A stretch of DNA of 64,000 bases from Actinopolymorpha cephalotaxi (lineage in GTDB: Bacteria > Actinomycetota > Actinomycetes > Propionibacteriales > Actinopolymorphaceae). The notes under the pieces are model-generated. The model was not told the DNA's origin. It was given only the letters and a program-made list of their open reading frames with translations, and did no database searches. Shown here piece by piece: positions 54,030 through 56,761 of the stretch. Positions within the stretch are counted from its first letter, which is position 1, and each line of letters starts with the position of its first letter. The DNA lies in contig NZ_JACBZA010000001.1 of assembly GCF_013408535.1 (NCBI RefSeq), positions 930,001-994,000 on the forward strand. The letters run 5' to 3'. The translations under genes and the position numbers were made by a program.

Positions 54030-54145
54030 CTGGTTGCCCTCCTGTGCTCGCCGCCTGCCGCATGCGTCTCGCCGTATCGTGCCCGATTCCGGTCACCCGT
54101 CGCGCGCGGAGCCAACCTCCGTGACCCCCCACCGCACTATGGGGC

Positions 54146-55273
54146 ATGTCCCGGTCCGGTGCGGCGGTCGAAGGTCCCGACGAGGATGCCGGAGACGACG
54201 TGGCGGACACGTCGGATGACGTGCTGGTCGTACGTGCGCGGGCGGGTGACAAGGCGGCGTTCGCCACGCTCGTCCTCCGCCACCGCGACCAGGCGCGCCG
54301 ACTGGCCGAACGAGTGCTGAACGATCGCGACCTCGCTCGGGACGCGAGCCAGGAGGCGATCGTCGTCGCGCTGGTCAGCCTCGAGCGGCTCGCGAACCCG
54401 CGCAGCTTCGGGCCGTGGCTGTGCGGCATCGCGTTGAACGTCGCCCGCCGCTGGCTGCGGGAGTCGGGTCGGTTCGGGCAGTTGCCGGAGACGGACCTGC
54501 CGGACCGCGGCCCCGGGCCTGAGGACCTCGCCGAGACATCCGTACTCGCGCATCGAGTGCGTCGTGCGATCGGCGACCTCGCGCCAGGGCAACGCGATGC
54601 GGTGTTTCACTACTACCTGCAGGGACTGAGCCACCGCGAGGTCGCGGCCGAACTCGGTATCAGTCCCGGTGCTGTCAAGGCTCGCTTGCACCAGGCGCGG
54701 GCCGCGCTCGCGCCCCGGCTGTCTCCCTTCGTACAGGAGGATTCCATGTCACCCACTTCACCGCCCGAAACGCCGACGGAGCCTCGTTGGGTGGACGTCA
54801 GCGTCGCCGGGATCCGGCGGCCCGGCGGCGAGGACGCCGCCTTCAAGGTGCACGTCGTGCTTTTGCGGGAGAACGGTGGCCGGAGGGAACTCCCGATCGG
54901 CGTACTCGCCAACGCCGCGGTCGCGTTGACGATGATCGTGGAGAGCGTGGAGATGCCGCGCCCGATGACGCACCAGTTCACCGCGAACCTGCTCGGCGCG
55001 GCCGGCGCGCGGGTCACGGAGGTGCGGATCAACGAACTCGCCGGTGGGAGCTTCTACGCGTCCGTCCTGCTGGACGGTCCGGCCGGGCAAGGCGAGGTTG
55101 ACGCCCGGCCGAGCGACGCGCTGTGTCTTGCCTGCATCACGGGTGCGCCGATCCGCGTGGACGAGCGCATTCTCGCCGACCGGGCCGCGACCGGTGCCGG
55201 TGAGTGGCGCGACTACCCGACCACCGAGTCCGACCTGGCCGAGGAGATCCGCCGTGCCTCCGGGGCCAGGTAG
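54146..55273 (+). CDS. ECF-type sigma factor fused to a bifunctional nuclease (BFN) domain
   Basis: 375 residues. Sigma region 2 spans ~26-115 (FATLVLRHRDQARRLAERV, LARDASQEAIVVALVSLERL, NPRSFGPWLCGIALNVARRW) and region 4 spans ~135-190 (GQRDAVFHYYLQGLSHREVA, ELGISPGAVKARLHQARAAL). Residues ~201-375 form a DUF151/BFN nuclease domain (WVDVSVAGIRRPGGEDAAFK, LPIGVLANAAVALTMI, INELAGGSFYASVLLDG, RPSDALCLACITGAPIRV). BFN proteins show RNase and DNase activity in plants and bacteria. At the domain join AGGAGG (54735-54740) sits 5 bases before an in-frame ATG (54746), so the BFN part (175 residues, full family length) could also be made alone. No anti-sigma gene adjoins. It overlaps the dehalogenase gene by 61 bases. 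Confidence 0.88.
   Translation: MSRSGAAVEGPDEDAGDDVADTSDDVLVVRARAGDKAAFATLVLRHRDQARRLAERVLNDRDLARDASQEAIVVALVSLERLANPRSFGPWLCGIALNVARRWLRESGRFGQLPETDLPDRGPGPEDLAETSVLAHRVRRAIGDLAPGQRDAVFHYYLQGLSHREVAAELGISPGAVKARLHQARAALAPRLSPFVQEDSMSPTSPPETPTEPRWVDVSVAGIRRPGGEDAAFKVHVVLLRENGGRRELPIGVLANAAVALTMIVESVEMPRPMTHQFTANLLGAAGARVTEVRINELAGGSFYASVLLDGPAGQGEVDARPSDALCLACITGAPIRVDERILADRAATGAGEWRDYPTTESDLAEEIRRASGAR
54735..54748 (+). promoter_or_regulatory. Internal ribosome binding site and start codon for the BFN domain
   Basis: AGGAGG-ATTCC-ATG inside the sigma-BFN frame. The motif is stronger than that at the gene's own start and is placed exactly between domains. Confidence 0.6.
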
Positions 55274-56166
55274 CTGTCTGGGCTGCTGTGGTCGGCCGGC
55301 ACCGGTCGTATGAGCAGGTGCCGCTCCGCCCAGGCGGTGATGGCTCCGGCGATCGCCTCTGGCTGGTCCTCGGCCGCGTGGTGCCCGGCCGGGCCGCAGT
55401 GCAGGGTCTCCAGCGCGGTGATGTGGGCCCGGCACCACGCGGCCATCTCCTCCCCGATCAGCAAGGTCGGGGAGGAGTCGAAGGTGAGCAGGAGCTTGGG
55501 GACGTCGTGGCTGCCGGCCAGCCACCTGTCGTACTGCTCGACCCGCTCGGCCACGTCCGCCGGCTGACCGTCGAGTGGGAGCGACCGAGCCCATTCGAGG
55601 ATGGGTCGGCGACTCTCGCGGGTGGGGTAGGGGGCCAGGTAGGACGCGAGGTCACGCTCGTCGACCGGGTGCAGGACGCCACCGGTGAAGGCGGACTCCA
55701 CGAAGAAGGTCCCGTCGAGCACGAGTTCCTCTCCCTCGGGTCCGCGCATGGCCTGCGCGCGTGCGCGGGGCTGTTCACCGAGCTCGCTCCAGGACATGGG
55801 CCGAACGATGGTCTCGAAGAAGGCCACGCCACGCACCCGGTCCGGGTGCCGGGCTGCCCAGTCGAAGGCGAGTGCCCCACCCCAGTCGTGGCCGACCAGG
55901 ACCACCCGGTCCAGCCCCAGCGCGTCGAACCAGGCGTCCAGGTAGCGGGCGTGGTCGGCGAAGCGGTACGGCACGTCGGGTTTGCCGGAGCGGCCCATTC
56001 CGATCAGGTCCGCAGCGATGAGACGGGCAGGGAGGTCGACGGCGGGCAGCACCTTGCGCCACAGGCGCGAGGAGGCGGGGTTGCCGTGCAGGAACACGAC
56101 TGGCGTGCCGTCGCCGGGCAGCTCCTGGTGGTAGATGGTCGAGTCCAGCACGTTGGTGATCGGCAT
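55213..56166 (-). CDS. Haloalkane dehalogenase (DhaA-like, HLD-II)
   Basis: 317 residues. It cleaves carbon-halogen bonds through an aspartate ester: nucleophile D94 and halide-binding W95 in LVGHDWGGALAF, halide-binding N29 in HGNPASS, E118 in FFETIVRP as catalytic acid, and a histidine in GPAGHHAAEDQ. YRFADHARYLDAWFDALGL and MGRSGKPDVPYRF are close to Rhodococcus DhaA. A C-terminal extension of about 30 polar residues past the fold overlaps the sigma-BFN gene antisense. Divergent from a marR gene with shared operator-like repeats, so probably repressed by that protein. Natural substrate unknown. Confidence 0.9.
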   Translation of the reverse strand: MPITNVLDSTIYHQELPGDGTPVVFLHGNPASSRLWRKVLPAVDLPARLIAADLIGMGRSGKPDVPYRFADHARYLDAWFDALGLDRVVLVGHDWGGALAFDWAARHPDRVRGVAFFETIVRPMSWSELGEQPRARAQAMRGPEGEELVLDGTFFVESAFTGGVLHPVDERDLASYLAPYPTRESRRPILEWARSLPLDGQPADVAERVEQYDRWLAGSHDVPKLLLTFDSSPTLLIGEEMAAWCRAHITALETLHCGPAGHHAAEDQPEAIAGAITAWAERHLLIRPVPADHSSPDSYLAPEARRISSARSDSVVG

Positions 56167-56189
56167 GACACCTCAACTCGTTCGTCACA

Positions 56190-56234
56190 CTAACGGCTTT
56201 GTGAGGTCGACGCTAAACCGTTAGTCGTACTAAC
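56190..56234. promoter_or_regulatory. Operator-like repeats between dehalogenase and marR
   Basis: GTTAGT-CGT-ACTAAC (56220-56234) is a perfect palindrome, and a third half site CTAACGG (56190-56196) mirrors CCGTTAG (56218-56224). The palindrome overlaps the expected marR -35 region, and the third half site overlaps a -10-like TAGTGT for the dehalogenase. Confidence 0.65.
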
Positions 56235-56242
56235 ACAAGAGG

Positions 56243-56248
56243 TATGCT
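56243..56248 (+). promoter_or_regulatory. -10 box of leaderless marR
   Basis: TATGCT, close to consensus, ends 6 bases before the ATG at 56255. Confidence 0.5.
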
Positions 56249-56254
56249 GGCCGC

Positions 56255-56761
56255 ATGAACGACAAAGCGCCCGGTGACCCGTCCGGGGCGGCCGGTCCGG
56301 GAGGCCGGGCGGTGGGTGCGGAGCGGCTACGCGAGCTGCCCACCCGGCTGCTGTCCCTGGCCGCTGTCCATTCCGACCGCCGCGTCAACGAGGAGTTGGC
56401 ACGCGTAGATGCACGCAAGTGGCATTACGCGGTGCTCGCGACGCTGGAGGAGTTCGGGCCCGCGAGCCAGGCCGAGCTGAGCGCCCGTACGGGCATCTAT
56501 CGCAGCGACATGGTCGGGGTCCTCAACGAACTGGCCGGCCGTGGCCTGGTCGAACGCGCACCGGATCCTGCCGACCGCAGGCGGAACGTCGTCACGCCGA
56601 CCAGGTCGGGCCGACGCCATCTGCTCAGGCTGGACAGCCTGCTCGCCGCTGTGGAGGACGAGGTGCTGGCGCCGCTGACCTCGGCGCAACGCGCACAGCT
56701 GACCCGCCTGCTGGCGAAGCTCGTGGACCATCACGGCCGGCAGGGTGACCGATCGATGTAG
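56255..56761 (+). CDS. MarR family regulator
   Basis: 168 residues. Winged-helix DNA-binding region: KWHYAVLATLEEFGPASQAEL, TGIYRSDMVGVLNELAGRGLV, then wing DPADRRRNVVTPT. A 25-residue Gly/Pro-rich head precedes it. MarR proteins usually repress the divergent gene and themselves and release on binding a phenolic or toxic ligand; here the partner is a haloalkane dehalogenase, and paired CTAAC repeats lie between them. Confidence 0.9.
   Translation: MNDKAPGDPSGAAGPGGRAVGAERLRELPTRLLSLAAVHSDRRVNEELARVDARKWHYAVLATLEEFGPASQAELSARTGIYRSDMVGVLNELAGRGLVERAPDPADRRRNVVTPTRSGRRHLLRLDSLLAAVEDEVLAPLTSAQRAQLTRLLAKLVDHHGRQGDRSM

Follow-up and report, generated by a model that had tools for sequence, protein, structure and literature searches.

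Analysis of the window (the whole stretch of 64,000 nucleotides that was analysed) showed one forward-strand gene in which an ECF sigma factor is joined to a BFN domain. The features of the gene and of its upstream region were as follows, with TM0160 of Thermotoga maritima as the reference for BFN residues:

54113..54118, + strand, -35-like half of a promoter motif, CAACCT (consensus YAACCY), upstream of all eight fusions (8/8)
54135..54140, + strand, -10-like half of the motif, CACTAT (consensus SACTAT), five bases before the start codon
54146..55273, + strand, ECF sigma factor-BFN fusion, 375 aa, open for 375 codons
54269..54472, + strand, sigma region 2 (Pfam Sigma70_r2, residues 42-109), from Pfam and a structural match to 4lup
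54554..54709, + strand, sigma region 4 (Pfam Sigma70_r4_2, residues 137-188), from Pfam and a structural match to 2h27
54735..54740, + strand, internal ribosome-binding site AGGAGG, five bases before the ATG at 54746-54748
54746..55273, + strand, possible free BFN product of 175 aa from the internal ATG
54857..55186, + strand, BFN domain (DUF151, PF02577), residues 238-347, from Pfam and a structural match to 1vjl_A
54968..54973, + strand, Thr275-His276, equivalent to Thr57-His58 of TM0160; the next residue is Gln, where Asp is usual
55115..55117, + strand, Asp324, equivalent to Asp115 of TM0160

The Sigma70_r2, Sigma70_r4_2, and BFN_dom matches in the fusion were all above the curated Pfam cut-offs, and BFN_dom was matched over profile positions 1-108 of 112 (94.6 bits, cut-off 27). 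The sigma half showed the features of an ECF factor, with r2 and r4_2 lying 27 residues apart and no match to region 3, and the fusion scored 81.2 bits with the NCBIfam sigma70-ECF superfamily (cut-off 42.9). The single frame with sigma regions 2 and 4 and a full BFN domain, as reported in a preliminary description of this DNA, was confirmed by the ORF reading and by Pfam. The structural model of the fusion had a mean pLDDT of 87.4, mostly above 90 in the BFN domain, and the packing of the two halves is left loose in the model (pTM 0.51). Region 2 of the model matched region 2 of sigma-E (4lup) with Z 13.8 over 91 residues (rmsd 2.2), region 4 matched region 4 of sigma-E (2h27) with Z 10.0 over 69 residues (rmsd 1.9), and the tail matched TM0160 (1vjl_A) with Z 20.0 over 139 residues (rmsd 2.5), which is the DUF151 fold. 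The SigG1 structure 7qh5 was also among the structural matches. The genome of the window (G000; 6.86 Mb, one contig) contained a second, ordinary BFN elsewhere.

The four neighbours scanned on Pfam and NCBIfam were a divergent trmO, a convergent haloalkane-dehalogenase homologue, an epimerase-like gene, and a MarR gene, and no anti-sigma factor was present among them. The absence of an adjacent anti-sigma factor, which had been pointed out before, also held around five other fusions, where 20 frames were scanned; of these frames, 5 had no Pfam match, and an anti-sigma factor of an unrecognised type is possible among these five. The neighbour frames were picked by a crude rule: of the 60 listed, five of which were the fusions, 20 were scanned, none of them from around G001 or G838. 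Fusions of different lineages had no gene family in common among the neighbour frames scanned; DUF72 adjoined only the fusions of the close relatives G443 and G457. The last 61 bases of the fusion (55213-55273) are shared with the haloalkane-dehalogenase homologue, which lies at 55213-56166 on the - strand and scored 373 bits with NCBIfam PRK03592.

Intact fusions were found in eight genomes of the Actinomycetota, the window's own included, so that a search for the same architecture in other actinobacteria, as had been proposed, yielded seven further genomes. Six of the further fusions were scanned on Pfam and passed the cut-offs for all three domains, while the G838 fusion, outside that scan, was read directly and aligns along the fusion profile. 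The fusion of G001, from the same genus, was 87% identical to that of the window, and the Jiangella asiatica fusion was 70% identical over its whole length. The distribution was patchy, with the fusion in 1/12 Jiangella genomes and in 1/22 genomes of the Jiangella asiatica family. In the window's order, 6 of 293 genomes matched, namely G838, which has an intact fusion, G000, and G001 to G004. Intact fusions were present in 3/3 genomes available from another class and in one of 66 genomes (G500) of a further class. A phylum draw of 396 genomes gave five matching genomes, the window's included, and a second 396-genome search with a wider alignment gave the same four non-window genomes. When the BFN part alone was compared with 394 genomes of the class, 124 of them gave a match with an E-value of 1e-18 or below, among which only G000 (100%) and Jiangella asiatica (69%) stood out, the next being at most 48% identical. 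These wide searches scored 4 to 6 candidates per genome, and the fusion counts are lower bounds.

The whole-genome searches covered the Actinomycetota; other phyla were reached by one contig scan, confined to close relatives, and by searches of plasmid and viral collections. None of the 390 matching records in the plasmid collection covered 80% of the query, and among the 25 plasmid matches listed, 24 were to the sigma half and one was to the BFN. The best listed plasmid match to the sigma half was L069 (2965-3789, 43% identity), which comes from a plasmid, classed as mobilizable, of the cyanobacterium Tolypothrix sp. PCC 7910 and has no BFN annotated next to it. No match was obtained in one viral-contig scan.

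Close relatives of the window showed other states of the locus. G002, of the same genus, had the sigma half deleted and the BFN kept; in Actinopolymorpha rutila (G004) deletions broke the sigma half into three frames and the internal start was lost; Actinopolymorpha pittospori (G003) had a free BFN only, 57% identical in that domain, with no sigma remnant seen; and G005, of the same genus, had no match of the fusion kind. The two halves were not found as separate neighbour genes at any locus tested, with the exception of the broken G004. By eye, the region corresponding to 55213-56761 of the window seems prone to deletion at loci L003 and L004. In G002 a MarR-like frame follows soon after the BFN, so that the dehalogenase, like the sigma half, seems to be missing, while in G004 the frames downstream of the BFN differ again.

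A tree was built from 33 BFN domains (8 fused, 3 sigma-less, and 22 of the 43 ordinary ones). One branch, with support of 100/96, separated the 11 fused and sigma-less BFNs from the 22 ordinary ones. The sigma-less BFNs fell at three places within the fused group, of which the well-supported branches force only two, several branches inside the fusion clade being weak. The G003 BFN grouped with that of Jiangella asiatica (96/79), and remnants of the sigma half were still visible in G002 and G004. The preliminary description had counted a stop codon before 54746 in close relatives as evidence against a genuine fusion. The sigma half is indeed deleted or broken in G002 and G004, yet because both fall within the fusion clade and still have traces of the sigma half, they are sigma losses and not an ancestral two-gene state. 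The G003 BFN has perhaps also lost its sigma half, as judged from the tree alone.

The dN/dS between G000 and G001 was 0.110 for the sigma half (codons 30-196) and 0.142 for the BFN half (codons 213-375). The BFNs of G002 and G004 gave values of 0.19 to 0.25 against G000 and G001 and 0.36 against each other, which suggests that the sigma-less BFNs remain constrained, in pairwise values that include the time before the loss. For the same pair of G000 and G001 (window 54146-55270 and L002), dS fell from 0.51 over the sigma half to 0.32 over the BFN half.

A sequencing error, a recent chance fusion, or a functionless pseudogene might also be invoked for such a frame, and the broken sigma half of G004 and the patchy occurrence (1/22 in the Jiangella asiatica family) would fit. 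A frameshift error in the sequence had been named at the outset as one of two findings that would refute the fusion; since the same uninterrupted fusion recurs in seven other genomes and the low dN/dS shows purifying selection on both halves, sequencing error does not account for the frame. With eight intact fusions, a conserved promoter motif, and one deep clade in addition, this whole group of explanations is extremely improbable.

A motif of the form YAACCY-N16-SACTAT, with a fixed spacing of its halves, was found upstream of all eight fusions (8/8). The -10 half was CACTAT or GACTAT in the window, G001, G004, Jiangella asiatica, and G838, and one base off the consensus in the others (GACTAC in G443 and G457, GACTCT in G500, and GACCAT in G470). 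G004 also had the motif, which in all eight fusions and G004 reads AACC, 17 bases, and [CG]AC followed mostly by TAT. In G500 and G470 the motif lay within the long open frame; for G470 the start codon was ambiguous. A de novo search of six upstream regions from separate lineages, for the highest-scoring pair of six-base blocks 12 to 19 bases apart, returned this motif, with a gap of 16 and 21.4 bits, and 60 dinucleotide shuffles gave 15.8 +/- 0.4 bits with a maximum of 17.1 (0/60 as good). The spacers were unlike one another by eye. An exact-word promoter test was not significant (68/200 shuffles).

The fate of the motif differed among the relatives. In G002, where the sigma half is deleted, the -35 half was kept and the -10 half had decayed (10.2 bits against 18.2 to 22.1), while in G004, where the sigma half is broken, the motif was intact (21.3 bits). 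G003 had no good match to the motif (best 9.6 bits), and its one exact match to a strict promoter pattern, built partly on the window's own site, lay far from the BFN gene. With at most one mismatch, the strict pattern occurred twice in G000, once exactly, and the exact match was the fusion locus; exact matches in G001 and G004 were found only at this locus, and G002 had none. No wider regulon was seen in G000, where the pattern was no commoner than its reversed control (9 against 25; strict, 2 against 4). Four of the eight other G000 pattern matches were inspected and all lay within open frames of at least 150 codons, which in GC-rich DNA are weak evidence of coding sequence.

Because the motif precedes eight fusions, decays with the sigma deletion, and has its sole exact G000 match at this locus, the gene probably drives itself, that is, the sigma half probably directs its own predicted promoter, as is common among ECF factors. 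In the window, as in Jiangella asiatica, the start codon lies five bases after the -10 half, so a leaderless mRNA is likely.

The AGGAGG-N5-ATG in frame at the join of the sigma and BFN parts, on which an internal start had been proposed, was borne out by the sequence. Of the 21 internal in-frame start codons that were examined, the ATG at 54746 is preceded by the best Shine-Dalgarno match. A start codon was present at the join in 8/8 fusions, and a Shine-Dalgarno run of at least five bases stood five or six bases before it in 7/8, the run being absent in G838. The join start alone had the longest run in five of the eight genes (G000, G001, G470, G443, and G457). The residue before the Glu at the join varied (Gln, Lys, Arg, or Pro, and Trp in G002) with a codon that always ended in G, and the linker between the halves otherwise varied in sequence and length among the fusions. 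In G002, which has no sigma half, GGGAGG-N5-ATG was kept at the aligned position, and this ATG was the first start after an in-frame stop, with no start in the 22 codons between.

It is at best possible that the BFN is made only within the fusion and that the Shine-Dalgarno sequence and ATG at the join are a relic of two genes or an accident of the peptide E-[ED]-x-M. When synonymous codons were shuffled, an equally long Shine-Dalgarno run was retained in 36 to 100% of trials (combined p 0.99), so that nucleotide-level selection on the Shine-Dalgarno sequence beyond that on the protein is unsupported; the join in G838, which lacks the run, also suits a fusion-only product. Against it stand the retention of start and ribosome site in G002 after the sigma half was deleted, the join start as sole holder of the longest run in 5/8 genes, the otherwise variable linker, and a two-gene ancestor that was nowhere seen. 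The retained start in G002 is the main evidence for internal initiation, and a message that would yield both the fusion and a free tail from 54746 thus has strong indirect support from comparison of the sequences. The earlier proposal of a sigma-nuclease fusion plus a free nuclease survives in that the fusion is real and a second product is plausible, since G002 keeps the start and the ribosome site, while the identity of the tail as a nuclease is less supported. In G004 the promoter is kept despite the broken sigma half, and the internal start is lost, so that its BFN may not be made.

The residues of the BFN tail were compared with 43 of 49 ordinary BFN loci (L022, L024, L026, L027, L029, and L030 were left out, and two genes were counted twice, L006 being the same as L038 and L009 the same as L047), with TM0160 numbering set through an inferred 12-residue offset to the alignment. 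The putative triad of TM0160 is Thr57, His58, and Asp115, and TM0160 and Rv1829 are reported to be dimeric through the BFN domain (PMC7249048, consulted in part). Glu39, His58, Asp59, and Asp115 were invariant in 43/43 ordinary rows and Thr57 was present in 41. Among the fused domains, Asp115 was kept in 8/8, His58 in 3/8 (Tyr in five), and Thr57 in 5/8 (Ala or Val in three), while Asp59 was replaced in 8/8 (by Glu in G500) and Glu39 was kept in 5/8, being lost in the window, G001, and Jiangella asiatica. The window's tail had a complete triad (Thr275, His276, and Asp324), as in only 3/8 fusions, with Ala and Gln in place of Glu39 and Asp59. Judged from the alignment, every fused domain departs from the ordinary site, each in its own set of residues. 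A catalytic role of Glu39 and Asp59, both invariant in the ordinary BFNs compared, is putative. A second BFN type was observed in some Actinomycetes (L037 and L062; support 100/97), with Ser or Ala for the triad Thr and the usual Glu, His, and Asp.

These residues bear on whether the tail is the RNA/DNA nuclease that the preliminary description took it for. An active nuclease tethered to RNA polymerase could cut nucleic acid at opened promoters or cut nascent RNA, and the match of Thr275, His276, and Asp324 to the putative TM0160 triad, together with the DNase and RNase activity measured for plant DUF151 proteins (PMC7249048, in the part consulted), speaks for it. Such a tethered nuclease is nevertheless unlikely, for Asp59 is replaced in 8/8 fused domains, Glu39 in 3/8 including the window's, His is changed to Tyr in 5/8 and Thr to Ala or Val in 3/8, whereas the 43 ordinary rows never vary at Glu39, His58, Asp59, or Asp115. 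The nuclease claim was therefore weakened by the varied changes at Glu39, His58, and Asp59 across 8/8 fusions, with Asp115, kept in 8/8, as the point in its favour. Relaxed catalysis with the fold kept would fit a sensing or dimerising role of the tail.

A different function for the tail would be that of a degradation or adaptor module which passes the sigma factor to the ClpC protease, with the free tail competing for the protease. UVR-DUF151 proteins were highly enriched in a plant CLPC1 trap (PMC8889267, in the part consulted) and the ClpC1 interactome of Mycolicibacterium smegmatis includes a BFN protein (PMC10433963, likewise). The UVR domain could explain the plant contact, however, and the fusion has no UVR match, while a listing in an interactome is not evidence for an adaptor role, which makes such a module quite unlikely here.

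The reading we prefer, with a probability of roughly 0.6, is that of an autoregulated ECF sigma factor which carries, in the place of an anti-sigma factor, a regulatory tail made of a dimerising BFN domain with an altered site, and which is made together with a free copy of that tail. The first step is well supported by the upstream motif: the sigma half would bind YAACCY-N16-SACTAT and transcribe its own gene, with a leaderless mRNA in the window. The mRNA would then give the full fusion (from 54146) and the free tail (ribosome site at 54735, ATG at 54746), a step with strong indirect support. The free tail may pair with the tail of the fusion and set the activity of the sigma half; the pairing is proposed because BFN proteins homodimerise through this domain. 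A signal sensed by the tail, perhaps a ligand, might switch the positive feedback loop on or off. The lost residues suggest that the tail, its active site altered, would act in binding or sensing and not as an ordinary nuclease.

The sole exact strict match in G000, taken with the loss of the sigma half and the retention of the BFN in two, perhaps three, relatives, led to the further idea of a one-gene regulon, which we offer tentatively. The main or only target of the sigma factor would be its own gene, and the free tail from the same mRNA would damp the feedback loop, so that the device would serve to make and control the attached BFN domain through positive feedback.

The locus appears to encode a conserved sigma factor that promotes its own gene and carries a BFN tail. 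Of the preliminary description, the true ECF-BFN fusion stood, while the conserved self-promoter, the sigma losses in relatives, and the spread in the phylum had been overlooked. A review of ECF extensions names SnoaL, TPR, cysteine-rich, WD40, and anti-sigma-like types, and the words BFN, DUF151, and nuclease do not occur in its main text as far as consulted (PMC8999054). Literature searches on sigma factors with BFN or DUF151, in sources seen in part, gave no description of an ECF or other sigma-BFN fusion. The fusion is like ECF factors with C-terminal extensions in having regions 2 and 4, a folded tail, and no adjacent anti-sigma factor found, and unlike them in that the window's tail is a BFN/DUF151 domain which an internal start could release. 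It shares with ordinary BFNs (TM0160 and Rv1829 of Mycobacterium tuberculosis) the fold, Asp115, and, in the window, Thr57-His58, but it is sigma-fused, falls in a separate clade, and is changed at Glu39 and Asp59; compared with ordinary actinobacterial BFNs, the fused domain has a short insertion and a different C-terminal tail.

Phage endolysins offer an analogy, without kinship, for the two products: an in-frame internal ribosome site gives the full-length protein and a free C-terminal domain, which may form one complex (PMC9430671, in the part consulted). The endolysin design builds a lytic enzyme, whereas that of the fusion would tune a transcription factor.

The fusion adds to the known ECF factors with C-terminal extensions, and the self-promoter motif is newly found here. 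BFN/DUF151 would be a further type of domain that stands in for an anti-sigma factor, here in a gene that likely gives two products and has a defined self-promoter. The fusion also bears on what bacterial BFN proteins do, since a site-altered BFN that selection has maintained and that is coupled to the start of transcription suggests that the family binds or senses in addition to any cutting. Another frame, without a match to the BFN query (L008, 907-2019, - strand), encodes an ECF sigma factor in 371 codons with a possible long C-terminal extension.
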